Shown here one piece after another: positions 14,555-63,898 of a stretch of 64,000 bases of DNA. The stretch's first letter is position 1; the number at the start of each line of letters is the position of its first letter. The notes under the pieces are model-generated. The model had not been told where the DNA came from. It searched no databases and was given only the letters and a program-made list of their open reading frames with translations. The translations under genes were made by a program, and so were the position numbers. Origin of the DNA: Gammaproteobacteria bacterium (lineage in GTDB: Bacteria; Pseudomonadota; Gammaproteobacteria; Ga0077554; Ga007554); the NCBI GenBank assembly GCA_021731145.1, contig JAKFXX010000004.1, positions 1-64,000 of the forward strand. The letters are read 5' to 3'.

Positions 14555-15142
14555 ATGGAATCCCTGGTGATACACCCAACCGCTACAGCGCAGTGGCAAG
14601 CCCTGGTTCTTGAGGCCGAGTCCGCCGCGCATCATCGGCTCGATGAGGAGACGGAAAGCTATCTGGTTTTTCTGCTGATGCGCTTTATGAGTGAGGTGGG
14701 GGCGGCGAAGAAGGTTCTTGCGATGGATTATTTGAACGCCATGAATGACATGGGCCGCGTCCGGCAGGGAAAATTGCGAGATGTTGGTGATCTGTGCCTG
14801 ATCCATGCGGGTCTGTTTCCTTTACAGGCGGAGCGCCGCCGCGTTGCGGTGAGCTATTTCGTTGATCTTGGGCGCAGCGCCTATTTGCAGCTTGCCGGGT
14901 ATTTGCATAATAGCGCGGCGGATACCTATATTCACCTTGCGCAGGATTTTATAGTATTGATGGATGTGCTGCAGAGCATGCGCACCCTTGGCGGTAATAG
15001 TACCTCGCTTTTTAGTCCCTTGACCGCCTATGACCTGTGGAATGACACGGGTGCCAGCCATGTTTACCGGGCAGCATACGATGGCGCCAGCGCATTGCCG
15101 GTGAAGACGGGCGGGCGCGGAGAAAAACAAAAGTCGCATTAA
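14555..15142 (+). CDS. Conserved-looking protein of unknown function upstream of glnA
   Basis: A 195-residue cytoplasmic protein with no family I recognise. It is mostly helical by composition, with LDEETESYLVFLLMRFMSE near residues 27-45 and ERRRVAVSYFVDLGRSAYLQL in the middle, and no signal peptide or membrane segment. The start at 14555 is well supported by AAAGGAGG (14542-14549). It is divergent from the outer-membrane protein gene and precedes glnA by 319 bp, outside the NtrC/sigma-54 control region, so it probably has its own promoter in the 94-bp divergent gap. Confidence 0.7.
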   Translation: MESLVIHPTATAQWQALVLEAESAAHHRLDEETESYLVFLLMRFMSEVGAAKKVLAMDYLNAMNDMGRVRQGKLRDVGDLCLIHAGLFPLQAERRRVAVSYFVDLGRSAYLQLAGYLHNSAADTYIHLAQDFIVLMDVLQSMRTLGGNSTSLFSPLTAYDLWNDTGASHVYRAAYDGASALPVKTGGRGEKQKSH

Positions 15143-15278
15143 TCTCATCAAAACCCTTGCCAGCGGTACTTTCCAGAGGTAATCTTCGCCGATCCGGGAG
15201 TTCTGTTGATGACGGCCCGTAATTTTTTATCAGTCGGCAGCGCACTTCAAGTCTTGATATAAAAAGCCGCAATAGGGC

Positions 15279-15293
15279 GCACCAATGTGGTGC
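15279..15293 (+). promoter_or_regulatory. NtrC box 1 upstream of glnA
   Basis: GCACCAATGTGGTGC matches the NtrC consensus GCAC-N5-TGGTGC exactly. It lies about 133 bp before the predicted sigma-54 start site, a normal enhancer distance. The 15143-15461 gap holds this box, a second box, the -24/-12 promoter and the glnA leader, and no gene. Confidence 0.88.
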
Positions 15294-15306
15294 TTTTCTA
15301 TTTTTT

Positions 15307-15321
15307 GCACATTAATGGTGC
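15307..15321 (+). promoter_or_regulatory. NtrC box 2 upstream of glnA
   Basis: GCACATTAATGGTGC is a second perfect GCAC-N5-TGGTGC site, 28 bp centre-to-centre from box 1. The same 15 bases with matching flanks recur before nirB at 61260-61274. Confidence 0.9.
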
Positions 15322-15385
15322 GTTCGGCGGGCCACTTTTGGCCGTTGCGGTTTTTAACCTGCTGAAATAGCGAGTTAATTTTTTA

Positions 15386-15401
15386 TGGCATGTTTTGTGC
15401 T
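15386..15401 (+). promoter_or_regulatory. Sigma-54 (-24/-12) promoter of glnA
   Basis: TGGCATGTTTTGTGCT fits TGGCACG-N4-TTGCW with GG and GC at the required spacing. Transcription would start near 15412, leaving a 50-nt leader with GGAGGGGAG before the glnA ATG. Confidence 0.8.
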
Positions 15402-15461: not shown

Positions 15462-16871
15462 ATGTCCGCAGAAACAGTTCTCAAAATGATCAAAGACAAC
15501 GAAGTGAAATTCGTTGATTTCCGTTTCACCGATACCCGCGGCAAAGAGCAGCACGTCTCCGTGCCGGCTTCCACCCTCGATGCCGATGCCTTCAGCGAGG
15601 GTAAAATGTTTGACGGATCTTCCATCGCCGGCTGGAAGGGTATTGAAGAATCCGACATGATTCTGATGCCCGATGCCGATACCGCAGTGATGGATCCTTT
15701 CTTCGACGAAAGCACACTGATTCTGCGTTGCGACATCCTCGAACCCCACACCATGAAGGGTTACGACCGTGACCCGCGCTCGCTGGCCAAGCGCGCCGAG
15801 GCCTACTTGCAGTCCACTGGCATTGCCGATACCGCGTTTTTTGGTCCGGAGCCTGAGTTCTTTATCTTCGACGACGTGCGTTGGGGCGCGGACATGAGCG
15901 GCTCATTCTGCAAGATCGACTCGGAAGCGGCCTCGTGGAACTCCGAGAAGGTATACCCGGACGGCAATATGGGTCATCGTCCCGGCGTGAAGGGCGGCTA
16001 TTTCCCCGTGCCGCCGGTGGATCAGTTCCAGGATCTTCGTTCCGCCATGTGCCTGGCGCTGGAAGACATGGGGTTGTCCGTTGAAACCCATCACCACGAA
16101 GTGGCCACCGCCGGCCAGTGCGAAATCGGCACTCGCTTCAGCACCTTGGTGAAAAAGGCTGATGAGGTTCAGATCCTCAAATATGTCATCCAGAACGTCG
16201 CGCATGCCTATGGCAAGACAGTCACCTTCATGCCCAAGCCCATTGTCGGCGACAACGGCAGCGGTATGCACGTACACCAGTCGCTTTCCAAGGGTGGTAA
16301 TAACCTGTTCGGCGGCAATCTGTACGGTGGCCTGTCCGAGATGGCGCTTTTCTACATCGGCGGTATCTTCAAACACGCCCGCGCGCTGAACGCCATCACC
16401 AATTCCACCACCAACAGCTACAAGCGTCTGGTGCCGGGCTTCGAGGCGCCGACCATGCTCGCCTACTCGGCGCGCAACCGCTCCGCTTCGGTGCGTATTC
16501 CGTATGTGCCCAGCCCGAAGGCGCGCCGCATCGAGCTCCGCTTCCCGGATGCCAGCAGCAATCCCTACCTGGCCTTTGCTGCAATGATGATGGCGGGTCT
16601 TGACGGTATTCAGAACAAGATCCATCCCGGCGATGCCATGGACAAGGATCTGTACGATCTGCCGCCGGAAGAGGCGAAGAAGATCCCGACCGTGTGCCAT
16701 TCACTGGACATGGCGCTGGACGCGCTCGACAACGACCGTGCCTTCCTCACCGCAGGTGGCGTGTTCTCTAACGAGATGATCGACGCCTATATCGACCTGA
16801 AGATGAAGGAAGTCACGCGCTTCCGCATGACCACCCATCCGGTTGAGTACGACATGTATTACAGCCTGTAA
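15462..16871 (+). CDS. glnA: Glutamine synthetase, type I
   Basis: Makes glutamine from glutamate, ammonia and ATP; the entry point for ammonium assimilation, acting as a cytoplasmic dodecamer. The 469 residues match GlnA of gammaproteobacteria. Visible motifs are [17 protein letters not shown] near the N terminus, [14 protein letters not shown] and [12 protein letters not shown] (metal and ATP ligands), and the adenylylation loop [14 protein letters not shown], so activity is probably controlled by GlnE. Transcription is probably driven by NtrC and sigma-54 from the upstream sites. A terminator at 16901-16938 separates it from ntrB. Confidence 0.98.
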
Positions 16872-16974: not shown

Positions 16975-17007
16975 GTGACGATCGCACCATTATGGTGCGA
17001 TCGTCAC
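16975..17007. promoter_or_regulatory. NtrC operator in the glnA-ntrB gap, embedded in a 33-bp palindrome
   Basis: GCACCATTATGGTGC (16984-16998) matches GCAC-N5-TGGTGC exactly. It is the core of a longer palindrome with 16-bp perfect arms (16975-16990 and 16992-17007) around one central base. It lies about 180 bp before ntrB and could bind NtrC strongly for autoregulation. The rest of the 16872-17187 gap holds the glnA terminator and a possible -24/-12 site. Confidence 0.8.
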
Positions 17008-17187: not shown

Positions 17188-18264
17188 ATGCTGCCCGATG
17201 TTATGACACAAGATGCAATAAGTCGGCGCATCATTGATGCACTCAATACCGCAGTATTGATGTTCGATGATGCGCTGCGCCTCATTTACGTTAACCCCGC
17301 CGCTGAGATGCTGTTCGCGGTGAGTGCAAGACGGGTGCGCGGTATGCCAGTGCAAGAGCTGTTGCCGGGTGCCGAGGTGGTTATTGATGCCATGCGCAAG
17401 GCGCTGGAGAGCGGGTATCCCTTTACCGAGCGCGAACTGCTGCTGATGCTGCCGGTGGATCGCAAGATCACAGTGGATTTAACGGTTACCCCGTTGGGTG
17501 AGGTGCAGGGCAAGGAACTGCTGGTTGAGATGGTGCAGGTGGATCATCATATGCGCATTACCCGTGAGGAAAACCTGCTGGCGCAGCATCATGCGGCACG
17601 CGCCGTGGTGCGTGGCCTGGCGCACGAGATCAAAAATCCCTTGGGCGGGTTGCGCGGCGCCGCGCAGTTGCTGGAGCGTGAATTGAGCGATGAATCGCTC
17701 AAGGAATACACCAGCATCATCATCGGTGAAGCGGACAGGCTGCAGAATCTGCTTAATCGCATGCTGGGGCCTAATACCGTGCCGCACAAGCGCCCTATCA
17801 ATATCCATCAGGTGCTGGAGCGCGTGCGTGGTGTGGTGCTGGCCGAGGTGCCGGTAGGGGTGGAGATCATCCGTGACTATGATCCCAGCATCCCGGACTT
17901 CAACGCCGATCAAGACCAACTTATCCAGGCGTTGCTCAACATTGTGCGTAATGCGGTGCAGGCCATTGATGGATCAGGCGAGATCATCTTGCGCACCCGG
18001 GTTCAGCGCCAGTTCACCATTGGCCAGCATCGTTACAAGCTGGCAGCAAGGATTGATGTTATTGACAATGGGCCAGGGATCCCCGCCGATATGCTTGAAA
18101 GTATTTTTTACCCGATGGTCACTACCCGCCCGGAAGGCACGGGGCTGGGGTTGTCCATCGCCCAGTCGCTGGTGCAGCAGCACGACGGCCTGATCGAATG
18201 CACGAGCCGTCCGGGACGGACGGTGTTTACGGTATTGCTCCCACTGGAGAAGGCCCATGAGTGA
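17188..18264 (+). CDS. ntrB: Nitrogen regulation sensor kinase/phosphatase NtrB
   Basis: Cytoplasmic histidine kinase that phosphorylates NtrC under nitrogen limitation and dephosphorylates it with PII. It is 358 residues long, with a PAS domain (about 10-120), the phosphorylated H146 in RGLAHEIKNPLGGLRGAAQ, and an ATPase with NIVRNAVQAI, DNGPGIP and GTGLGLSIAQ. There is no membrane segment, as usual for NtrB. An alternative start lies at 17203. It overlaps ntrC by 8 bp, indicating coupled translation. Confidence 0.96.
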   Translation: MLPDVMTQDAISRRIIDALNTAVLMFDDALRLIYVNPAAEMLFAVSARRVRGMPVQELLPGAEVVIDAMRKALESGYPFTERELLLMLPVDRKITVDLTVTPLGEVQGKELLVEMVQVDHHMRITREENLLAQHHAARAVVRGLAHEIKNPLGGLRGAAQLLERELSDESLKEYTSIIIGEADRLQNLLNRMLGPNTVPHKRPINIHQVLERVRGVVLAEVPVGVEIIRDYDPSIPDFNADQDQLIQALLNIVRNAVQAIDGSGEIILRTRVQRQFTIGQHRYKLAARIDVIDNGPGIPADMLESIFYPMVTTRPEGTGLGLSIAQSLVQQHDGLIECTSRPGRTVFTVLLPLEKAHE

Positions 18265-19666
18265 AAAGGAACATGTTTGGGTGATTGACGATGACCGGGC
18301 GATCCGCTGGGTGCTGGAGCGGGCGCTCCGTCAGGCGGATATGGATGTCGCCAGTTTCGACAATGCGGCGGCGGCGCTGAACGCGTTGGAGGAGGGTGCG
18401 CCGGATGTCATCATCAGCGATATTCGCATGCCCGGCATGGATGGAATCAAGATGCTCGAACGCATCAAGGCCGAGCACCCGGATCTGCCGGTGATCATCA
18501 TGACCGCCCATTCCGATCTGGACAGTGCGGTATCCGCCTATCAGGGCGGCGCGTTTGAATACATGCCCAAGCCCTTCGATGTCGATGAGGCGGTAGACCT
18601 GGTGCGCCGCGCCGTCGATCAGAGCCGCCGTAACCGCACCGTGCAAGTCACTGAAAAAGATCTTCCTACGCCCGAGATCATTGGCGAGGCACCGGCCATG
18701 CAGGAGGTGTTCCGCGCCATCGGCAGACTTTCCAGGTCGAATATCACGGTATTGATCAACGGTGAATCCGGCACCGGCAAGGAGCTGGTGGCACTCGCGC
18801 TGCATCGCCACAGCCCGCGCGCCAGCAAGCCGTTTATTGCGCTCAACACCGCGGCGATCCCGCGTGACCTGCTGGAATCCGAGCTGTTCGGCCATGAGCG
18901 TGGCGCGTTTACGGGTGCGCAGAATATGCGTCGCGGCCGTTTCGAGCAGGCCGATGGCGGCACACTGTTTCTGGACGAGATCGGCGACATGCCGGCGGAA
19001 TTGCAAACCCGCTTCCTGCGGGTACTGGCGGATGGCGAGTTTTACCGTGTTGGCGGGCATACCCCCGTCAAAGTGGATGTGCGTATCATCGCCGCCACCC
19101 ATCAGGATCTTGAGCGGCGCGTCAAAGAGGGGCTGTTTCGCGAGGATCTGTTTCACCGCCTGAACGTGATCCGCATCCATATTCCGGCGCTACGCGAACG
19201 GCGCACCGACATGCCGCTGCTGCTGCGCCATTTTCTCAACAGCGCCGCGCGGGAACTCAATGTCGAGCCCAAAACCCTGCGCCCCGACGCGGAAGCTTAC
19301 CTGTGCAGGCTCGACTGGCCGGGCAATGTCCGTCAGCTTGAAAACACCTGCCGCTGGCTGACCGTGATGGCCTCGGGCCGCGAAATCCACATGGAAGACC
19401 TGCCCCCCGAACTGAAGCTCGACACCACAGCTCCGCCCGTCAATGGCGGTGAATGGGAGGCTGCGCTCAAGACGTGGGCGGATCAGAGCCTGATGCGCGG
19501 CGAAGTGGGTGTGCTCGATCATGCCATGCCTGTTTTTGAACGCATCATGATTGAAACCGCCCTCAAGCACACCGGCGGCCGCCGCCAGGATGCCGCCCGG
19601 CTGCTGGGCTGGGGCCGTAATACCCTGACACGTAAAATCAAAGACCTGGGGATGGGGGAGGAGTAG
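18257..19666 (+). CDS. ntrC: Nitrogen regulation response regulator NtrC
   Basis: Sigma-54-dependent activator of nitrogen-assimilation genes, 469 residues. Receiver with D55 in IISDIRMPG; AAA+ domain with Walker A GESGTGKE (about 172), the GAFTGA loop that contacts sigma-54, and LDEIGDMP as Walker B; C-terminal Fis-type helix-turn-helix in GGRRQDAARLLGWGRNTL. It overlaps ntrB by 8 bp. Likely targets visible in this same window are glnA, ntrB itself, the nitrate transporter gene at 54267 and nirB at 61454. Confidence 0.97.
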   Translation: MSEKEHVWVIDDDRAIRWVLERALRQADMDVASFDNAAAALNALEEGAPDVIISDIRMPGMDGIKMLERIKAEHPDLPVIIMTAHSDLDSAVSAYQGGAFEYMPKPFDVDEAVDLVRRAVDQSRRNRTVQVTEKDLPTPEIIGEAPAMQEVFRAIGRLSRSNITVLINGESGTGKELVALALHRHSPRASKPFIALNTAAIPRDLLESELFGHERGAFTGAQNMRRGRFEQADGGTLFLDEIGDMPAELQTRFLRVLADGEFYRVGGHTPVKVDVRIIAATHQDLERRVKEGLFREDLFHRLNVIRIHIPALRERRTDMPLLLRHFLNSAARELNVEPKTLRPDAEAYLCRLDWPGNVRQLENTCRWLTVMASGREIHMEDLPPELKLDTTAPPVNGGEWEAALKTWADQSLMRGEVGVLDHAMPVFERIMIETALKHTGGRRQDAARLLGWGRNTLTRKIKDLGMGEE

Positions 19667-53880: not shown

Positions 53881-54068
53881 AATGTGCCTCTCTGAAAGAG
53901 CTCGAACCTATCGCCCATGCCGCGAAACATATTGAACCATATCATGGTGGTGACTTTTTTGACCCAGATCAAAAAAGTTCAAACTAAGGCGTTGTTGTTT
54001 ACCCGGTAACTCTATGTTTTGGGAAGGCCTGCTAATCGCACCAAATTGATAAAGGGACAATGGTTTGC

Positions 54069-54083
54069 GCTCGAAGTTGGTGC
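54069..54083 (+). promoter_or_regulatory. NtrC box 1 upstream of the nitrate transporter gene
   Basis: GCTCGAAGTTGGTGC differs from GCAC-N5-TGGTGC at one base. It lies about 100 bp before the -24 element. The 53881-54266 gap contains this box, a weaker one, the sigma-54 promoter and the leader, and no gene. Confidence 0.65.
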
Positions 54084-54106
54084 GCAAGCGCCATTCTGAA
54101 GCTGAC

Positions 54107-54170: not shown

Positions 54171-54186
54171 TGGCACACGGCTTGCT
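54171..54186 (+). promoter_or_regulatory. Sigma-54 (-24/-12) promoter of the nitrate transporter gene
   Basis: TGGCACACGGCTTGCT matches TGGCAC-N5-TTGCW fully. The predicted start lies near 54197, giving a leader of about 70 nt. Confidence 0.88.
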
Positions 54187-54266: not shown

Positions 54267-55547
54267 ATGAATTTTCAGGATTTCAAACAGGCAGGGCATT
54301 GGCCCACGCTGTTGGCGGCGTTTTTGTATTTCGATATCAGCTTCATGGTATGGGTAGTGCTGGGGCCGCTGTCGTTGTATATCACCCAGGAGCTGGGCCT
54401 TCCCATCGAAGAGAAATTTACGATTGTCGCTGTGCCTATCCTGGCGGGCGCGCTGTTGCGCGTGCCGATGGGGATGCTGGCGGATCACATCGGTCCGAAA
54501 CGCGCGGGGCAGTTGGGGCAGCTTATTGTCATGGCAGGGTTGGCCTATGCCTGGATATCTGGGTTGCATAGCAAGCTGGAGGTGGAACTGTTCGGGGTGA
54601 TTCTCGGGTTTGCAGGCGCGAGCTTCGCAGTGGCGCTGCCGCAGGCCAGCCGCTGGTATCCTCCTCATTATCAGGGCATCGTGCTGGGCATCGCCGGGGC
54701 GGGCAATATGGGCGTGGTGCTGGACTCCATGATCGTGCCGTGGCTGGCGGAAAATTTTGGCTGGCAGTCGGTGTTCGGTTTTCTGCTGATCCCCGTCGTG
54801 CTGGTCTTCCTGCTTTATAGCTGGATGGCCAAGGATGCACCGCATCAACCCACCCCGGTGACGTTGGCGAACTACGCCACAGTGCTCAAGGATGCCGATA
54901 CCTGGTGGTTTATGTTCTTCTATTCGATTACCTTTGGTGGCTTCGTGGGCTTGGGTACTGCGTTGCCGCTGTACTTTACGACGTGGTATCACACCTCCGG
55001 CGTGGCGGCGGGCATGATGGTGGCTCTGGTGGTGTTTGCAGGTTCGCTATTCCGCCCGGTAGGGGGCTGGCTGGCGGACCGCATGGGTGGCATAAAGACG
55101 CTGCAGGTGCTATTCGTGGTCGTGGCGCTTTCGTATTTGAGCATTTCCTTGATGCCGGAAGGCCCTGCGCCTGCCGCAGGCGCGGTGGCGGATGCCAAGG
55201 TGAGTGGCTGGGGGCTGTTCGAGTTGCCCGCTGTTGCCTGGGGCGCAGTGGCCATTTTCTTTGTCGGCGCGATGGCGTTGGGTATGGGCAATGGCTCGGT
55301 ATTCCAACTCGTGCCGCAGCGCTTCCGCCATGAAATGGGTGTGATTACCGGATTGGTGGGCGCGGCAGGTGGCGTGGGCGGATTCTTTCTCGCCAAAGCA
55401 CTGGGCTGGTCCAAGGGCATGACGGGTGACTTCGCGGCCGGTTTCTGGGTATTCGCCGGGTTGGCCTTGATTGGCCTGGTTGGCCTGGTACGCGTCAAAA
55501 CCCGCTGGCGTACCACCTGGGGCGCGGCGTCGGGGGCGAGGGTCTGA
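54267..55547 (+). CDS. nasA: NarK/NasA-family nitrate/nitrite transporter
   Basis: A 426-residue, 12-helix major facilitator protein of the nitrate/nitrite porter family. Family signatures are GPLSLYITQELGL in the first part, GIAGAGNMGVV, a nitrate-signature-like glycine stretch, and GLVGAAGGVGGF near the end. The arginine-containing loop LLRVPMGMLADHIGPK is MFS-typical. An assimilatory role is inferred from its sigma-54/NtrC control region and from nirB/nirD 6 kb downstream. No nitrate reductase (nasC) gene lies in the window; it may follow nirD. Confidence 0.9.
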   Translation: MNFQDFKQAGHWPTLLAAFLYFDISFMVWVVLGPLSLYITQELGLPIEEKFTIVAVPILAGALLRVPMGMLADHIGPKRAGQLGQLIVMAGLAYAWISGLHSKLEVELFGVILGFAGASFAVALPQASRWYPPHYQGIVLGIAGAGNMGVVLDSMIVPWLAENFGWQSVFGFLLIPVVLVFLLYSWMAKDAPHQPTPVTLANYATVLKDADTWWFMFFYSITFGGFVGLGTALPLYFTTWYHTSGVAAGMMVALVVFAGSLFRPVGGWLADRMGGIKTLQVLFVVVALSYLSISLMPEGPAPAAGAVADAKVSGWGLFELPAVAWGAVAIFFVGAMALGMGNGSVFQLVPQRFRHEMGVITGLVGAAGGVGGFFLAKALGWSKGMTGDFAAGFWVFAGLALIGLVGLVRVKTRWRTTWGAASGARV

Positions 55548-55623
55548 GAAAACCGTAAAGTGTATGGGGCGGAAAAATGGCCGCGAGCATCAGGTGTCAT
55601 TAATCGAGGGAAAGAAAAAATCG

Positions 55624-55665
55624 ACCTTGGGCGGAGGGGGGGCGGCTTCATTTTCCGCTCAAGGT
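55624..55665. repeat. 12-bp imperfect inverted repeat after nasA
   Basis: ACCTTGGGCGGA (55624-55635) and TCCGCTCAAGGT (55654-55665) pair with one mismatch around a G-rich loop. It has no U-tract. It may terminate nasA or mark the left edge of the accessory island. Confidence 0.4.
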
Positions 55666-55702
55666 TAGAACATTGACGTCGGTGAATTGATGAGCAATCA
55701 CA

Positions 55703-55785
55703 CATGCTTTCGTTACGTGTGACGGGGAGCAGGTAACCGGCGATTACGCCCTCGCATCGAGCGCGGCCGCGCCAGGACGGTTTCT
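55703..55785 (+). pseudogene. Fragment of a second GNAT-toxin gene
   Basis: About 80 bp are nearly identical to 56971-57066 inside the intact GNAT gene (shared TTCGTTACGTGTGACGGGGA and CCTCGCATCGAGCGCGG). A 12-bp in-frame block is missing, and there are only scattered mismatches. It encodes [16 protein letters not shown]-like residues but no start or acetyl-CoA site. It is a partial duplication or a remnant of a related TA module. Confidence 0.75.
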
Positions 55786-55794
55786 GCGGGCGAG

Positions 55795-56094
55795 CTACTG
55801 TTCCCGCGGAATCTCCCCAGTCTGCAAATCCCGCCGCTTGTGGATGACAGCCAGAATGCCGATGTGAGTGGTTTTGATCTCGTAGAGGATGCTGTAAGAG
55901 TATGGCGACACCTCCCGGACCATCTCATCATTGAGCTCCGGCACTATGCGCCCCAGGCGGGGCAATTCGTCGAGCAAAAAGGTCTTGCGCACCAAGGCAT
56001 CCGACACGCGCTTGGCGTACAGCGGCGAATCTTCCGCGATGTAATTATGAATATGGCGAAGCTGGGCCAAGGCATGATTGGTCCATTTCACCAT
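55795..56094 (-). CDS. RelE/ParE-family toxin
   Basis: 99 residues with the compact ParE-like fold: MVKWTNHALAQLRHIHNYIA, the RVSDALVRKTFLLDELPRLG helix, then RIVPELNDEMVREVSPYSYS and ILYEIKTTHIGILAVIHKRR. It is read after the small antitoxin gene, which it overlaps by 7 bp. ParE toxins poison gyrase and RelE toxins cut mRNA at the ribosome; which applies here cannot be read from the sequence. It is the first intact gene of the island next to nasA. Confidence 0.85.
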   Translation of the reverse strand: MVKWTNHALAQLRHIHNYIAEDSPLYAKRVSDALVRKTFLLDELPRLGRIVPELNDEMVREVSPYSYSILYEIKTTHIGILAVIHKRRDLQTGEIPREQ

Positions 56095-56267
56095 GATTGG
56101 ATATCTCGCAACACCTGCTCAGCGGGCGTGGTCTTGCCTTTCTCAACGTCTTCCTGCCCGCGCCGGATATTCTCCAGCACATAGAGTCGGTACATGATTT
56201 CTTCCATGTCCGCATCATCGGGCAGACTGGTAATGACGTTGATGGCATCTTTCTTGAGCGGTTCCAT
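56088..56267 (-). CDS. Antitoxin partner of the ParE/RelE toxin
   Basis: A 59-residue acidic and helical protein (ITSLPDDADMEEIMYRLYV, ENIRRGQEDVEKGKTTPAEQ, ending VLRDIQSW). No ribbon-helix-helix or HTH is obvious. It precedes and overlaps the toxin gene, the usual order for type II modules. The ATG at 56267 has GAGGTC upstream, whereas the ATG at 56303 has none. Antitoxin assignment rests mainly on context. Confidence 0.72.
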   Translation of the reverse strand: MEPLKKDAINVITSLPDDADMEEIMYRLYVLENIRRGQEDVEKGKTTPAEQVLRDIQSW

Positions 56268-56522
56268 AAAATTGACCTCAGTAACGTATCTTGGCCTTTC
56301 CATTTTCAGCCGTGGCCGACTGTTTGTCTATGGGCGAACGCGCTGCCAACAGAGCTGTCCCATTAAAAGTGTATCAGTAAATGCTTAACCCGTTGCACAC
56401 CCTGACCCGTTGTACACTCGTAGCGCGTAGCCCCAGCCGTCGGTGTTCAGGCGAGCAGGAATGCCCAAAAAGGTTTCCGAAACGACAGCTTGACCATCGT
56501 AATGACAAAGACGTTACGTGTC

Positions 56523-56550
56523 GCTATAATATAACATAGCTAATGAGGAG
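56523..56550 (+). promoter_or_regulatory. -10 element and likely operator of the DUF1778-GNAT operon
   Basis: TATAAT at 56525-56530 lies within an inverted repeat GCTAT...ATAGC (56523-56540), fitting an antitoxin-bound operator over the -10 box. GAGGAG at 56545-56550 is the ribosome site of the antitoxin gene. No good -35 is seen. Confidence 0.55.
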
Positions 56551-56556
56551 CTTTCG

Positions 56557-57341
<785 letters not shown>

Positions 57342-57416
57342 CGCCAACAGGGGAGGGTGGTGCGCAATCAACGCGTAAACGGGGACATGGGACGACGTGC
57401 GGTGCCTGTGGGTGCA

Positions 57417-57425
57417 TGCTAGAAT
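57417..57425 (+). promoter_or_regulatory. Extended -10 promoter of the retron RNA
   Basis: TGCTAGAAT fits the extended -10 (TGN-TATAAT with one change). Transcription would begin near 57432, exactly where the a1 arm starts. No good -35 is visible, as expected for extended -10 promoters. Confidence 0.6.
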
Positions 57426-57431
57426 GCAGAT

Positions 57432-57564
57432 GGGCCTACAGACAGACCTTTTGCCATGATTCGTGGCATTTGAAACAAACGGCAGGGCCTATGCTTCTTG
57501 TCAATCTCCGTTTACGTATGCGTATACGTTACGTTAGCTCTCGCGTAAGAGTGTCTGTAGGCCC
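57432..57564 (+). ncRNA. Retron msr-msd RNA
   Basis: GGGCCTACAGACA (a1, 57432-57444) and TGTCTGTAGGCCC (a2, 57552-57564) are exact reverse complements that close a 133-nt RNA, the long-range stem needed to prime msDNA synthesis. Inside are an msr-type hairpin TGCCA-TGATTCG-TGGCA (57452-57468), an AAACGG/CCGTTT pairing (57477-57482 with 57508-57513), and an msd-type hairpin ACGTAT-GCGT-ATACGT (57514-57529). A further stem uses CTCT/AGAG (57538-57551). The element ends 22 bp before the reverse transcriptase ATG in the same orientation. The exact branching G and the msDNA length are not assigned. Confidence 0.85.
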
Positions 57565-57586
57565 GCCTCATCTCAACTGACGCTAA

Positions 57587-59341
57587 ATGACACAACTAAC
57601 CATACTGAAATCGGCGGAGACCCTTCACGCTGTAGCTGACCTTTTGGGCTTTAAGGCATCTGCGCTTTCCTTTATTCTGTACAAGAAGCCCAGTGCCAGC
57701 AAGTACAAGCAATTCGATATCCCAAAGCGATACGGTGGCACACGCCAAATCTGCGCGCCGTCACCCGATCTAAAGTTACTTCAGCGACGGTTGTCCGATC
57801 TCCTTCAAAACTGCGTCGAGGAGATTAATGAAGCCAATGGTCTGGACGACAAAATTTCTCATGGATTCAAACGAAAGCGCTCGATCATCACGAATGCGAA
57901 GGAACACCGAAATCGCAATTACGTCTTCAATGTTGATTTGACGGACTTCTTTGGTGGCATCAACTTCGGTCGTGTTCGCGGATTTTTCATGAAGGATAAG
58001 AACTTTTCGTTACATCAGGATGTTGCGACAGTGCTTGCGCAAATCGCTTGCCACGAAAACGCGCTGCCACAGGGAAGCCCGTGTTCGCCAATCATCTCCA
58101 ACTTGATTGGACACGTGCTTGACATCCATCTCGTCCGGTTGGCCTCGCGTAATGGCTGTACTTACTCTCGATACGCAGACGACCTGACATTTTCCACAAA
58201 CAAGACCGAGTTCCCATCGTGCATTGCTAAACGTACAGTGGGCGAAGAACACCAGTGGAGTCCTGGCAATGATCTCGCGAGACTGGTCAAGAAGAGTGGC
58301 TTTGAGATAAACCCTCTCAAGACCCGAATGCAGTACCGTGATTCGCGTCAGGAAGTGACCGGGTTGGTCGTCAACAGAAAGGTAAACGTTCGTAGCGAGT
58401 ACAGACACACAGTCCGCGCAATGGTGCATCGCTTGTTCACCAAAGGCAGTTTTGAGTTTGTGAACAGGATGACTGACGACAAAGGAGCTATGACCCTGAA
58501 CAAGATAGCGGGCACCACCAATCAGCTCCACGGCATGCTCGGTTTCATCGATGGCGTTGATCTGTATAACAAGAAGCTGATTCCGAAAGTCAAAGGTTCA
58601 ATAGCGATAGACCAATCAAGCTTAACGAGCAAGGAATCAATGTACCGCCGTTTTCTGCTATTCAAAGAGTTTTACACTGCCTCCACTCCGGTCATCATCT
58701 GCGAAGGCAAGACGGACAACGTGTACATTCTGCATGCGATTCGCAGTTTGGCTGCGACATATCCGCAACTGGCGACAACGAACGCCGATGGCAAGATAAA
58801 ACTGCATGTTCGAATCTACAAATATTCCGGCACCAGTACAGGTCGAATTCTTGGCATTAATGGGGGAACAGGAGACCTGTCAAACTTCATGCACTTATAC
58901 AGCCGCGAGATCAAGAAGTTCAAAGCACCAGGAGCACAACAGCCGATTATCTTGTTGGTCGATAACGACGCCGGTTCAAAAGGCATATATAGCTCAGTAA
59001 AAGAAATAACCAAAAAGAATGTGGTGGGCGCGGAGCCATTTATCCACATTACAGGTAACCTTTACATGTCAGTCACGCCGCTGAAATCTGGAGCAAAGAC
59101 CTCTGTGATTGAAGATTTCTTCGATAACAACATCAAGTCAATAATCGTAGGTGGCAAGGTTTTCAATCCCCAAGATAAATTTGATCATGACACGCATTAT
59201 GGGAAGCACGTCTTCGCGCAGAAAGTCGTGAGGGTGCATGCAGATAAGATTGATTTCAGTGAGTTCAAAGCGATCTTGTCGAACATAGTGGAAGTGATTG
59301 ACGTGCATGAGGAGAAAAAAAACCTGACAGACCACGATTGA
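57587..59341 (+). CDS. Retron reverse transcriptase fused to a TOPRIM domain (Ec67/Eco2-like)
   Basis: 584 residues. The N-terminal part is a retron RT: NAKEH (103-107), the retron NAxxH motif; DLTDFF (117-122); LPQGSPCSP (from 160); YADD (196-199); and VTGLVVN (from 257), the retron VTG motif used to recognise msr. The C-terminal 210 residues form a TOPRIM-type nuclease domain with CEGKTD (E373) and LLVDNDAG (D459, D461). In E. coli retron Ec67 (Eco2) the same RT-TOPRIM fusion is an anti-phage effector. The gene is visibly AT-richer than its neighbours and lies directly downstream of its msr-msd RNA. No separate toxin gene is needed in this type. No frameshift or missing catalytic residue is seen. 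Confidence 0.93.
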   Translation: MTQLTILKSAETLHAVADLLGFKASALSFILYKKPSASKYKQFDIPKRYGGTRQICAPSPDLKLLQRRLSDLLQNCVEEINEANGLDDKISHGFKRKRSIITNAKEHRNRNYVFNVDLTDFFGGINFGRVRGFFMKDKNFSLHQDVATVLAQIACHENALPQGSPCSPIISNLIGHVLDIHLVRLASRNGCTYSRYADDLTFSTNKTEFPSCIAKRTVGEEHQWSPGNDLARLVKKSGFEINPLKTRMQYRDSRQEVTGLVVNRKVNVRSEYRHTVRAMVHRLFTKGSFEFVNRMTDDKGAMTLNKIAGTTNQLHGMLGFIDGVDLYNKKLIPKVKGSIAIDQSSLTSKESMYRRFLLFKEFYTASTPVIICEGKTDNVYILHAIRSLAATYPQLATTNADGKIKLHVRIYKYSGTSTGRILGINGGTGDLSNFMHLYSREIKKFKAPGAQQPIILLVDNDAGSKGIYSSVKEITKKNVVGAEPFIHITGNLYMSVTPLKSGAKTSVIEDFFDNNIKSIIVGGKVFNPQDKFDHDTHYGKHVFAQKVVRVHADKIDFSEFKAILSNIVEVIDVHEEKKNLTDHD

Positions 59342-59501
59342 TGCTGAGATCAAGGCCAGCAAGCGGCGGGTGACCGAGGATTTCCTCAGCCCGCTATAAG
59401 AAGTGCCCAAAAAAATAACAATCATCAAGCAATAAAATGCAAGAATAAGAAGCTAGTGAAGGTTTTGTTTTCTTGCGTCTTGTATTTTTGAGCCTATCTT
59501 T

Positions 59502-61199
59502 ATGTCCAGCGACCATCTCCAAACCCGTATCGGTTTCACCAGCATCACAGGCAAGCGTGATACCAACCAGGATTATGTAGGCACCTATCTGGACAACACC
59601 CGCTCCAGCGCGCGGCGCAGCGTCGTGGCGGCGGTGGCGGATGGTGTGGGTGGTGCGAAAGGCGGGCGTGAGGCGGCGGAGACTACGGTGCGGGGGTTCA
59701 TTGAAGGCTATTATGGCCTGCCGGAAACCCTGGGGGTGGAGCGTGCCGCAGCGCGCGCCTTGGGTGCGATTAACCGTTGGGTCTATGTTCAGGGGCGGCA
59801 GGATCGCCGCCTGGAGGGCATGGCTACCACCTTTAGTTCGCTCATTCTGCGTGGCCGCCAGGCGCATGTGGTGCATGTGGGTGACTCGCGTGTCTACCGC
59901 TTGCGTGGCCAAAAGCTTGCCCGGCTGACTGAGGATCACACCCTTGCTCATCCTGATCTGAGCCATGTGCTATTTCGCGCCGTGGGTATCGAGGAAAATC
60001 TGCGCATCGATTATTCGGCCCACAGCCTGGAATTGCACGACCGCTTTCTGCTGTGCAGCGATGGTGTGCATGGCGTGCTGTCGGATCGCCGTATTCTGGC
60101 TCTGTTGATGGCGCGCGCCGCGCCGGAAGAGGACGCTCAGGCCATTGTGCAGGCGGCGCAGGAGGCGGGCAGTCAGGACAACATCACCGCCCTGGTGATT
60201 GATGTTATCGGCCTGCCTGCGGCGGAGCAGTCCGATCTTGAAATGGCCATTGATGCCTTGCCGATTCATGATCTGCCCAATGAGGGTGACGTGGTGGACG
60301 GTTTCCGCTTGGTGGAAAAGATTTCCGACGGCCATTACAGCAGATTGTTCAAGGCCGAGGATACGCTTGAGTCACGCACCGTGGTGCTCAAGTTTCCTCA
60401 CCCCCGTGTCGCCAGCGAAGAGGCTTATCGCCGTGCCTTTGTGCGTGAAGCATGGATCGCGGCACGGGTGCGCAGCCCATGGATCGCGGGCGTGATTGAG
60501 CTGACGCCGGGGAGGCAGGCGCGTCTGTATTCGGTGATGCCTTATTACCAGGGCGCAACGCTTGAGGCGCGCCTGCTGCGTCCCCCGAAAATATCCATCG
60601 ATGAAGGCGTGGATATTGGCATCAAGCTCGCCAAGGCTGTGTACGCGCTCAACCGGCTGCGTATCATCCATCGTGACATCAAGCCGGACAATGTGTTGTT
60701 GCAGGAAGGCGGCGGCCTGAAGCTGCTGGATTTAGGTGTGGCGCGTCTGCCGGGATTTGAGGAATTATCGCGCGCGGAGATCCCGGGCACACCCAGTTAC
60801 ATGGCGCCGGAATTGTTCGATGGCGAATTGGGCGACGAGCAATCCGATCTCTATGCCTTGGGCGTAACGCTTTATCGCATGTTCAGCGGCGGCCACTATC
60901 CTTATGGTGAGGTGGAGCCCTTTTCGCGGCCACGCTTTAACAAGCGCACTGCTTTGACGCATCACCGCCCGGATTTGCCCGCGTGGCTGGATATGCAGCT
61001 TGCGCGGGCCGCTGAGGTGGAGAAAGGCAAGCGCCTGGGCGATGCCATGGAGTTGGCGTTCGAGCTGGAAAATGGCTTGGCACGCGGCATTCGCACGGTG
61101 CCGGTGAAACAGCCGCTCTATTACCGCAATCCCGTTGTGTTCTGGCAGGTGATTTCGGCCCTGCTTTTATTGGCGTTGATTGCAGCGCTGACACATTAG
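59502..61199 (+). CDS. PP2C phosphatase-Ser/Thr kinase fusion protein
   Basis: 565 residues. The N-terminal PP2C domain (about 8-240) has RDTNQDYV, VADGVGGAKGG, HVGDSRVYRL and GSQDNITALVID. The protein kinase domain (about 265-535) has the ATP lysine in VVLKFPHP, HRDIKPDNVLL (catalytic loop, about 390), DLG instead of DFG in LLDLGVARL, and GTPSYMAPELF. Its glycine loop is degenerate. A C-terminal membrane helix (VFWQVISALLLLALIAALTH) anchors it. In pseudomonads a gene of this type sits between the nitrate transporter and nirB; here the same gene order is kept apart from the inserted island. Its substrate is unknown. Confidence 0.9.
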   Translation: MSSDHLQTRIGFTSITGKRDTNQDYVGTYLDNTRSSARRSVVAAVADGVGGAKGGREAAETTVRGFIEGYYGLPETLGVERAAARALGAINRWVYVQGRQDRRLEGMATTFSSLILRGRQAHVVHVGDSRVYRLRGQKLARLTEDHTLAHPDLSHVLFRAVGIEENLRIDYSAHSLELHDRFLLCSDGVHGVLSDRRILALLMARAAPEEDAQAIVQAAQEAGSQDNITALVIDVIGLPAAEQSDLEMAIDALPIHDLPNEGDVVDGFRLVEKISDGHYSRLFKAEDTLESRTVVLKFPHPRVASEEAYRRAFVREAWIAARVRSPWIAGVIELTPGRQARLYSVMPYYQGATLEARLLRPPKISIDEGVDIGIKLAKAVYALNRLRIIHRDIKPDNVLLQEGGGLKLLDLGVARLPGFEELSRAEIPGTPSYMAPELFDGELGDEQSDLYALGVTLYRMFSGGHYPYGEVEPFSRPRFNKRTALTHHRPDLPAWLDMQLARAAEVEKGKRLGDAMELAFELENGLARGIRTVPVKQPLYYRNPVVFWQVISALLLLALIAALTH

Positions 61200-61259
61200 A
61201 GCCTGTCCGCGCATCAGGAAACCGGCGCACCAAGATGGATGCACCCAAGCGAAAAGGTT

Positions 61260-61274
61260 GCACATTAATGGTGC
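61260..61274 (+). promoter_or_regulatory. NtrC box upstream of nirB
   Basis: GCACATTAATGGTGC is a perfect NtrC site. With flanks (TTGCACATTAATGGTGCGTT) it is identical over 20 bp to the second glnA box. A poorer box (GCACCAAGATGGATGC) lies at 61227. The distance to the -24 element is about 110 bp. Confidence 0.88.
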
Positions 61275-61382
61275 GTTACCGGCTGACGGCGAAGTGCGCA
61301 AACACTTTGTGGATGAGTCATGGCATTGCTAACTCGTTGTCATAAAATAGATAATTGTCGCATTGAAATGCCATGATATATC

Positions 61383-61398
61383 TGGCACGCATATTGCC
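61383..61398 (+). promoter_or_regulatory. Sigma-54 (-24/-12) promoter of nirB
   Basis: TGGCACGCATATTGCC matches TGGCACG-N4-TTGC exactly. The predicted start lies near 61409, 45 bp before the nirB ATG. Confidence 0.92.
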
Positions 61399-61453
61399 CT
61401 AATGGTTTAAAGATGGCCCTCTGGGCTTATGGGCAAGATGCGAGGATTCGGCA

Positions 61454-63898
61454 ATGAAAGAAAAACTGGTTTTGATCGGCAACGGCATGGCGGGTGTGCG
61501 CACCCTTGAAGAACTGCTGAAAATCGCGCCGGATAAATACGACATCACGGTGTTCGGCGCCGAGCCGTATGGCAATTACAACCGCATCCTGCTTTCGCCG
61601 GTGCTGGCGGGCGAAAAGACCATCGACCAGATCATGCTCAATGACAAGCAATGGTATATCGACAACGGCATCACCCTGCATTGCGGCAAGGAGAAGGAGG
61701 TGGTGCAGATAGACCGCCGCAAGCGCAAGGTCATCGCCTCCGATGGCACCATAGCGGAATACGATTTCCTGTTGCTGGCCACGGGTTCCAATCCCTTCAT
61801 CGTTCCCGTGCCGGGCAATGACCTGCCGGGCGTTGTGACGTTCCGCGATATCCACGATGTCGACCTCATGCTGGAGGCCTCAAAGCAACATCAGCACGCG
61901 GTGGTGATCGGCGGTGGCCTGCTGGGCCTGGAGGCGGCCAATGGTCTGATGCTCCAAGGCATGAGCGTCACCGTGGTGCATATTCAGGACACGCTGATGG
62001 AACGTCAGCTCGACAAGGCGGCGGGCGAGTTGTTGCGCAAATCCCTGGAAGAGCGCGGCATGCACTTTTACATGCCGGCGCAGACCACTGCGATCATCGG
62101 CGAAGACCGCGTGCGTGGCGTGCGTTTCAAGGACGGTAGCGAGCTGTATGCCGACCTGGTGGTGATGGCGGTGGGTATCCGCCCCAATATCGATCTGGCC
62201 AAAAAATCCGGCATCCACAGCGAGCGTGGCGTCGTGGTCAACGACACCTTGCAAACCTACGATCCGCGCGTCTATGCCGTTGGCGAGTGCGTGCAGCACC
62301 GCGGCCAAGCCTATGGTCTGGTGGCGCCGCTGTTCGAGCAGGCCAAGGTGTGCGCCAATCACCTGGCCCACTTGGGCTACGCACGCTACCAGGGTTCCAT
62401 GACCTCCACCAAGCTCAAGGTCACGGGCATTGATCTGTTCTCTGCGGGAGATTTCACAGGCGACGAAACCACGGAAGAGATCGTGATCAAGGATGCCGCG
62501 CGCGGCATGTACAAAAAAATCGTGCTGAAAGACAACCGTATTCATGGCGCGGTGATGTACGGTGATACCGTCGATGGTGCATGGTATTTCCAGTTGATGC
62601 GCGACGGCACCGATGTCTCGGCGTTCCGCGATCATTTAATGTTCGGCGAATCGCATCTGGGTGATGCCGGCCATGGCGGGCAGAACAAGGCAGCCAGCAT
62701 GAGCGACAGCATGGAGGTGTGCGGCTGCAATGGCGTGTGCAAGGGCACCATCGTCAAGGCTATCACCGAGCAGGGTTTGTTTACACTTGATGAGGTGCGC
62801 ACGCATACCAAGGCATCGTCGTCATGTGGTTCCTGCACCGGATTGGTGGAGCAGATCATGTCTTCGGTGCTGGGCGGTGGCTATTCCGCCGCACCCAAGG
62901 AAAAGCCGGTGTGCAAATGCACTGATCATACCCACGACGAAGTGCGCAAGGTGATACGCCAGCAGCATCTGCTTAGTATTCCCGACGTGATGCGCTACCT
63001 GGAGTGGCGCACCCCGAATGGATGCCACTCATGCCGCCCCGCGCTTAATTACTATCTGCTGTGCGCCTGGCCCGCTGAATACAAGGATGATGCGCAGTCG
63101 CGTTTTATCAACGAGCGCGTCCACGCCAACATCCAGAAGGATGGCACCTATTCCGTCGTGCCGCGCATGTGGGGCGGTGTGACCACGCCCGATGAGCTGC
63201 GCACCATCGCGGATGTCGCGGATAAATATAAAATCCCCACCGTGAAAGTGACAGGCGGACAGCGCATCGACCTGCTGGGTGTTAAGAAGGAGGATCTGCC
63301 CGACGTGTGGCGCGATTTGAACAAGGGCGGAATGGTGTCGGGACACGCCTATGCGAAGGGGTTGCGCACCGTCAAAACCTGCGTGGGCAAGGAGTGGTGC
63401 CGCTTCGGCACGCAGGATTCCACCGCGATGGGTATCGAGTTGGAAAAGCGCACCTGGGGATCGTGGATGCCGCACAAGTTTAAAATGGCGGTATCAGGCT
63501 GCCCGCGCAACTGCGCCGAGGCCACCATCAAGGACTTCGGCATCGTGGCCGTGGAGTCGGGCTGGGAGTTGCACGTTGGCGGCAACGGCGGTGTTAAGGT
63601 GCGCGCCACCGATCTGCTGTGCAAGGTTACCACCGACGCCGAGGTGGAGGAATATTGCTATGCCTTCATTCAGCTCTACCGCGAAGAGGCGCATTATCTG
63701 GATCGCACCGCACCGTGGATCGAGCGTGTTGGATTAGAATACGTCAAACAACGCATCGTGGAAGATGCGGAAGGCCGCAAGGCGCTGTGTGAACGCTTTG
63801 TCGAATCACAGAAATATGCCCAGATTGATCCGTGGGCGGAACGTGCCAGCCATGATGTAGAGCGGCATGAATTTGTTCCGCTTAAATTGGTGGGCTAA
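61454..63898 (+). CDS. nirB: Assimilatory nitrite reductase large subunit
   Basis: Reduces nitrite to ammonium with NAD(P)H. It has 814 residues: an N-terminal FAD/NADH domain with VLIGNGMAGVRTLEELL and VVIGGGLLGLEAANGL, a BFD-like [2Fe-2S] domain with CGCNGVCKG and SCGSCTG, then the siroheme/[4Fe-4S] domain with CVGKEWCRFG and GCPRNCAEATIKDFG (about 682). All cysteine ligands are present. It is probably expressed from the NtrC/sigma-54 promoter upstream and followed by nirD. Confidence 0.97.
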   Translation: MKEKLVLIGNGMAGVRTLEELLKIAPDKYDITVFGAEPYGNYNRILLSPVLAGEKTIDQIMLNDKQWYIDNGITLHCGKEKEVVQIDRRKRKVIASDGTIAEYDFLLLATGSNPFIVPVPGNDLPGVVTFRDIHDVDLMLEASKQHQHAVVIGGGLLGLEAANGLMLQGMSVTVVHIQDTLMERQLDKAAGELLRKSLEERGMHFYMPAQTTAIIGEDRVRGVRFKDGSELYADLVVMAVGIRPNIDLAKKSGIHSERGVVVNDTLQTYDPRVYAVGECVQHRGQAYGLVAPLFEQAKVCANHLAHLGYARYQGSMTSTKLKVTGIDLFSAGDFTGDETTEEIVIKDAARGMYKKIVLKDNRIHGAVMYGDTVDGAWYFQLMRDGTDVSAFRDHLMFGESHLGDAGHGGQNKAASMSDSMEVCGCNGVCKGTIVKAITEQGLFTLDEVRTHTKASSSCGSCTGLVEQIMSSVLGGGYSAAPKEKPVCKCTDHTHDEVRKVIRQQHLLSIPDVMRYLEWRTPNGCHSCRPALNYYLLCAWPAEYKDDAQSRFINERVHANIQKDGTYSVVPRMWGGVTTPDELRTIADVADKYKIPTVKVTGGQRIDLLGVKKEDLPDVWRDLNKGGMVSGHAYAKGLRTVKTCVGKEWCRFGTQDSTAMGIELEKRTWGSWMPHKFKMAVSGCPRNCAEATIKDFGIVAVESGWELHVGGNGGVKVRATDLLCKVTTDAEVEEYCYAFIQLYREEAHYLDRTAPWIERVGLEYVKQRIVEDAEGRKALCERFVESQKYAQIDPWAERASHDVERHEFVPLKLVG

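Follow-up and report, generated by a model that had tools for sequence, protein, structure and literature searches.

The region in front of the assimilatory nitrite reductase genes of this gammaproteobacterium-like organism (positions 61227–61398 of the window, by which we mean the whole 64,000-nucleotide stretch of DNA that was analyzed) is very likely a standard enhancer-dependent sigma-54 promoter, controlled by NtrC, that serves the nirB–nirD operon and probably nasC as well. An NtrC operator, a second, degenerate site, and a −24/−12 promoter stand there at enhancer spacing and are conserved within the genus, and the genome has the genes for both regulators (Table 1). An earlier note on this DNA had predicted direct NtrC control of nitrite reduction, and the anatomy of the elements, their conservation, and the agreement with other bacteria support that prediction. 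From the sequence we infer both that NtrC binds at nirB and that its action depends on phosphorylation.

The nirB promoter has the GG and GC of a −24/−12 element at the correct spacing (TGGCACGCATATTGC, 61383–61397), and all fixed positions of TGGCACG-N4-TTGC are matched by TGGCACGCATATTGCC. Its last base is C, at a position where the sigma-54 consensus has W (A or T); the earlier description of a perfect promoter is right for every fixed position and slightly overstated for this one. Transcription would start near 61409, 12 nt after TTGC, which places the center of the operator at about −142. The gap between operator and −24 element is ∼107–108 bp, an enhancer distance (the 10%–90% range is 63–107.5 bp among nirB orthologues with both elements). 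The candidate second site, GCACCAAGATGGATGC, has its center ∼33 bp, some three turns of the helix, upstream of the main operator; its profile score is weak, its columns are conserved, and its function at nirB is putative. Because the glnA sites of this genome are part of the profile, the score of the nirB operator depends on the finding itself; the survey of orthologues described below is independent of it. Both ntrC (TIGR01818) and rpoN (PF04552, 235.7 bits, on a contig other than the window's) score above cut-off in the genome; for ntrC, as for glnA and ntrB, this is the result of NCBIfam equivalog models. Under nitrogen limitation, phosphorylated NtrC would bind the main operator, perhaps helped by the degenerate site three turns upstream, and would loop to the RNA polymerase–sigma-54 waiting at the promoter, driving transcription of nirB.

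The nirB operator lies in a 20-mer (TTGCACATTAATGGTGCGTT) that recurs exactly before glnA, as had been claimed (the earlier note began the nirB copy at 61260, 2 bp inside its start at 61258). A search of the window at up to three mismatches returned the two exact copies, both on the forward strand, and no other match, with a chance expectation of 0.01. Across the whole genome (2,893,550 bases in 47 contigs) there were again two exact matches, both in the window, and only one further match, with three mismatches, on contig C28; the reversed control pattern had none. Both copies are intergenic, one between an ORF ending at 15142 and the start of glnA, the other between the end of the kinase gene and the start of nirB, and the many random copies in coding DNA against which the earlier note had cautioned were not seen. 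The identity consists of the 17-bp operator, one base to its left, and two to its right, and it ends there, the next bases being T and G on the left and C and A on the right. It was also said to extend beyond the consensus, which is true of these three bases and of nothing past 20 bp.

Table 1. Features of the glnA–ntrBC, nasA, and nirB regions and of the nasT-like leader (window coordinates unless stated; scores are those of the glnA-derived NtrC profile, mismatches those to the sigma-54 pattern)
Feature	Position	Strand	Evidence
Distal glnA NtrC operator, GCGCACCAATGTGGTGC	15277–15293	+	Score 19.8
Proximal glnA NtrC operator, identical 20-mer	15305–15324	+	Exact match; profile
glnA sigma-54 promoter, TGGCATGTTTTGTGC	15386–15400	+	2 mismatches
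glnA, glutamine synthetase	15462–16871	+	NF007006 and TIGR00653 above cut-off
Perfectly palindromic NtrC site before ntrB, GCACCATTATGGTGC	16984–16998		Score 24.0
ntrB (glnL), sensor kinase	17188–18264	+	NF008293 above cut-off
ntrC (glnG), sigma-54 activator	18257–19666	+	TIGR01818 764 bits, above cut-off; Pfam Sigma54_activat, Response_reg, HTH_8
Candidate NtrC half-sites before nasA, GCACCAAA ... TTGGTGCG	54038–54084	+	Best score 11.6
nasA sigma-54 promoter, TGGCACACGGCTTGCT	54171–54186	+	1 mismatch
nasA-like NarK-family nitrate/nitrite transporter	54267–55547	+	MFS_1; TIGR00886 254.6 bits, below cut-off 311.7
PP2C phosphatase/Ser-Thr kinase fusion adjoining nirB	59502–61199	+	Pfam Pkinase and PP2C_2
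Candidate second, degenerate NtrC site of nirB, GCACCAAGATGGATGC	61227–61242	+	Score 3.3 (weak); conserved columns
nirB NtrC operator (20-mer)	61258–61277	+	Score 20.7
15-bp core of nirB operator, GCACATTAATGGTGC	61260–61274	+	Unchanged in G000, G001, G003
nirB sigma-54 −24/−12 promoter, TGGCACGCATATTGCC	61383–61398	+	0 mismatches to TGGCACG-N4-TTGC
Short putative nirB leader, ∼45 nt	61409–61453	+	Start predicted from promoter
nirB, nitrite reductase large subunit	61454–63898	+	TIGR02374 953 bits, above cut-off
nirD	Downstream of nirB		TIGR02378 above cut-off
Molybdopterin oxidoreductase, third gene	Past window end		Formate dehydrogenase alpha 500.9 bits, NasC 458.5 bits, both below cut-off
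Stretch after nasT-like ANTAR gene	L225 3798–3949 (G000 contig C5)		Three A..G.. hexaloops and 20-bp terminator stem

The molybdopterin oxidoreductase gene after nirD is probably nasC, a guess from its position. The gene order in the window resembles that of the Pseudomonas assimilatory cluster, and the nearest named nirB records are labeled Gammaproteobacteria. No NCBIfam model scored above cut-off for the PP2C/kinase fusion. A tblastn comparison placed this kinase gene within 700 bp upstream of nirB in five of 80 orthologous loci, with 15 more matches at the far locus edge (>2.2 kb of upstream sequence was available in 68 of the 80), which makes the window's gene order atypical of these orthologues. 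In the interval between nasA and the kinase gene (55548–59501) lie a gene for a ParE-like toxin, a TacA1-like antitoxin accompanied by a GNAT gene, and a reverse transcriptase (57587–59341, forward strand; best match PADLOC RT-Toprim_I-C, 769.7 bits) that is a candidate for retron-type defense. The same interval is ∼7 kb long in G003, a genome of the same genus, where it includes a GNAT relative at 95% identity and pieces resembling the ParE gene; in three other genomes (G004, G005, G006) nasA and the kinase gene are ∼76–103 bp apart. The interval looks like an insertion spot.

We compared 37 genomes, this one (G000) included. At a threshold of E up to 1e-100, nirB was found in 15, two of which (G009 and G034) had only partial or distant matches; glnA was detected in 30. 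Besides G000, nirB is present in the genus members G001 and G003, and the fourth member, G002 (genome 78% complete), gave no nirB match. Across the three genomes the operator core GCACATTAATGGTGC is invariant in 15 of 15 columns, with differing flanks, the outer site GCACCAAGATGGATGC is unchanged in 16 of 16, and the promoter TGGCACGCATATTGCC consists of the same 16 bases. Core, outer site, and promoter together are thus invariant in 47 of 47 columns versus 74 of 162 in the rest of 61200–61408 (Fisher p ∼9e-14, with columns treated as independent). Adding G005, which belongs to another genus, leaves 42 of the 47 element columns invariant versus 27 of 162 elsewhere; the promoter keeps all 16 columns and the outer site 15 of 16, and the operator position is taken by a different core, GCACGAAATTGGTGC. 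These comparisons support the action of selection on the operator core in the genus, so that the strong selection suggested earlier is supported for the core. The glnA core is common to G000 and G003 (two of the four genus members); it has one change in G001, and G002 has another core.

The same arrangement recurs before nirB in many related loci. We scanned up to 300 bp upstream of the best 80 of 595 nirB orthologues with an NtrC profile built from glnA sites, at main thresholds of score ≥10, at most two sigma-54 mismatches, and a gap of 40–160 bp. An NtrC site was found in 52 of the 80, a sigma-54 element in 54, and a suitably spaced pair in 46; because the loci are related, the last figure does not count independent events. 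Twenty rounds of shuffling all 80 sequences gave means of 3.65 NtrC sites, 1.8 sigma-54 elements, and no pairs, and control stretches at −1000 to −700 (73 loci) gave six, one, and none. At thresholds (score/mismatches) of 8/2, 10/1, and 12/1 the pairs numbered 47, 33, and 30 of 80, the shuffled means were 0.05, 0, and 0, and the controls had 0 of 73. Paired elements therefore exceed chance. The remaining 34 orthologues have no pair at the main thresholds, suggesting that NtrC control of nirB is common and not universal; we dropped universal control as a candidate on this count. It is scarcely credible that the nirB elements of this genome are chance matches without function. Single matches to GCAC-N7-GTGC are indeed often chance, with 90 exact sites in the genome versus 47 for the reversed control and five in the window versus 2.6 expected; the nirB operator and promoter, on the other hand, occur jointly, at the proper spacing, and conserved.

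Besides nirB, the predicted targets of this NtrC are glnA and a porin–glnK–amtB operon and, less surely, nasA and a nasT-like gene. This list of candidates is partial, and the scan behind it rests on 50 of the 90 GCAC-N7-GTGC sites and ∼100 of the 120 sigma-54 pattern matches that the genome has at no more than one mismatch. The sigma-54 element of glnA has a counterpart in all eight aligned sequences, this genome's included. The porin–glnK–amtB operon is preceded by a pair of NtrC sites at a spacing of 32 bp and by a sigma-54 element with two mismatches; the nasT-like gene has a one-mismatch element and a weaker NtrC site (score 13.6). The nasA alignment comprises four genomes, as the stretches fetched for G001 and G003 were without the nasA start. 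Within it the sigma-54 element has counterparts with small changes in G004, G005, and G006; GCACCAAA is kept in G000 and G005, with one change in G006 and two in G004; and GGTGCG is kept in three of the four sequences, with GGTGCA in G004. Two combined NtrC/sigma-54 patterns had five and three matches genome-wide, some of them inside genes, and reversed controls had none; both patterns miss nirB because they allow gaps of 45–106 bp. The palindromic site GCACCATTATGGTGC between glnA and ntrB may serve autorepression of ntrBC; the only sigma-54 element found within 300 bp of it has three mismatches and lies outside the 40–160 bp gap.

A rival reading is that another sigma-54 activator, such as NifA or an NtrX-like protein, drives nirB from sites that are themselves real. 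Other activators may exist in a genome with nifH and nifQ, but the nirB operator fits the glnA-derived profile and has its exact copy in front of glnA, next to ntrBC, and we regard a different activator as very improbable. Exact TGGCACG-N4-TTGC elements lie near nifH and nifQ (L006 and L211, contig C4), and the presence of these two genes suggests that the organism may fix nitrogen.

How NtrC control of nirB and glnA came to use the same 20 bp is a separate question. The earlier note had suggested a copied control segment, which would mean that a short piece was transferred between glnA and nirB, by duplication or micro-conversion, in this lineage or in the genus. Beyond the exact identity itself, the outer sites share 10 bp (GGCGCACCAA, 15276–15285 and 61224–61233), and at three flanking positions the nirB operator of G000 equals glnA where G003 and G001 differ. 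Under a model of independent draws from 42 glnA operators in 30 upstream regions (class-level), a match over all 20 bp has a probability of 2.1e-6, and one over the 15-bp core a probability of 5.8e-4; both values are per pair and uncorrected for the number of operators. However, the main match does not go past 20 bp, the spacing of outer and inner sites is 28 bp at glnA versus ∼33 bp at nirB with nothing between them that aligns, and the 10-bp match itself falls within operator-like sequence. The sister genomes G001 and G003 have only the 15-bp core, without extended likeness around it, and G005 has a different core at the same place. Moreover, when operators of glnA and nirB are taken from one genome they match on average at 13.5 of 21 positions (21 pairs; 13.2 in the 19 pairs without G000), hardly more than those of different genomes (12.8 of 21, 255 pairs), in a comparison of 13 genomes with both genes, nine of which contributed pairs; the operators of the two genes drift independently. 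A search of 94 other genomes yielded no copy of the 20-mer. With the pattern shortened to 18 bp and one mismatch allowed, three of the 95 genomes matched, namely G000 (twice, exact), G003 (before glnA, one mismatch), and G078 (one mismatch). Tests for homology past the binding site and for a shared history in the sister genomes detected neither. We therefore consider copying unlikely, and the sequence comparisons do not support it. The most plausible reading of the 20-bp match is a 15-bp core that selection has maintained in the genus, together with flanking bases that match in one lineage, the latter being, we conclude, a small, unexplained coincidence. Plain coincidence is not a fully comfortable account of the operator match, given the per-pair probability of 2.1e-6 and the 10-bp match of the outer sites. 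More generally, two genes may have identical operators without any copying between them.

We turn to the leader that would follow the nirB promoter. NasT-type antitermination was assessed by a rule of two hexaloop hairpins (A at position 1, G at position 4) followed by an intrinsic terminator, the hexaloop part of which is described in the available text of PMC3369931. The short nirB leader has neither a dual hexaloop nor a terminator. Rfam gave no match at the gathering threshold anywhere in the window, a result that says little on ANTAR-target families. Among the 54 orthologues in which a sigma-54 element lies within 260 bp, the leader is ≤70 nt in 43, 71–100 nt in five, and >100 nt in six; 48 of the 54 are thus ≤100 nt. 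Four of the six long leaders, all labeled Thiothrix (L117, L125, L132, and L143; 146–154 nt), have both dual hexaloop and terminator. Both features are absent from the other two, L135 and L078; in L078 a second candidate promoter lies nearer the gene. One further locus, L077, has a dual hexaloop and a terminator and no detected sigma-54 element. When no terminator was required, a scan of 300 bp found dual hexaloops in eight of the 80 orthologues. A search of openly licensed papers with a few terms returned, among its top matches, none that treats NasT leaders of nirB in Thiothrix.

The genome does have one ANTAR match, a nasT-like response regulator (the family was matched in 0 of 14 control genomes), and NasT-type structure follows its gene (Table 1). 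The genes after that stretch encode a substrate-binding protein, a permease, and an ATPase; the last two score above cut-off with nitrate ABC models, and the binding protein has no such match. The short leader without an antiterminator and the NasT-type structure elsewhere would place nitrate/nitrite sensing on uptake and not on nirB. We are evenly divided over this reading of the sequence, in which nirB would be under nitrogen-status control alone and NasT antitermination would act on a separate nitrate ABC-transporter operon. If true, inducer control gates uptake instead of the reductase, unlike in the Pseudomonas scheme and in Thiothrix, and gating by nitrate/nitrite through NasT may fall on the reductase in some lineages and on nitrate uptake alone in others. 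Such a shift may be widespread, as most sigma-54-bearing nirB orthologues have short leaders.

NtrC control of nirB is very probably real in this organism, and its logic is already well known in other Proteobacteria; it places nitrite assimilation here in the standard nitrogen-starvation regulon. The E. coli glnA enhancer has two NtrC sites upstream of a −24/−12 promoter. The two-site layout is alike here, with the sites 28 bp apart at glnA and ∼33 bp at nirB, where the outer one is degenerate. Closer parallels come from nitrite reductase genes themselves, each cited here for the portion of the report available to us. The nasB nitrite reductase of Pseudomonas stutzeri A1501 is NtrC-dependent, with a putative NtrC site in its promoter (PMC8443478), and nirB of Burkholderia cenocepacia H111 is down in an ntrC mutant (PMC5491218). 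In both species nitrite reductase genes are thus down in an ntrC mutant, the evidence in these portions being expression data and site predictions. Across Pseudomonadota, this enzyme family is enriched for predicted sigma-54 control (PMC12316311), and another report portion describes nirB and nirD as upregulated when nitrogen is limiting, with a regulation that it calls not clear (PMC7801951). In the NalA system, as the available part of its description has it, phosphorylated NtrC mediates transcription of the nirBD leader from a sigma-54 promoter, and NasT must antiterminate this leader (PMC12830290), whereas in the putative ∼45-nt leader here we found no such structure. What the two systems would have in common is the promoter, a sigma-54 promoter activated by phosphorylated NtrC that drives nirBD.
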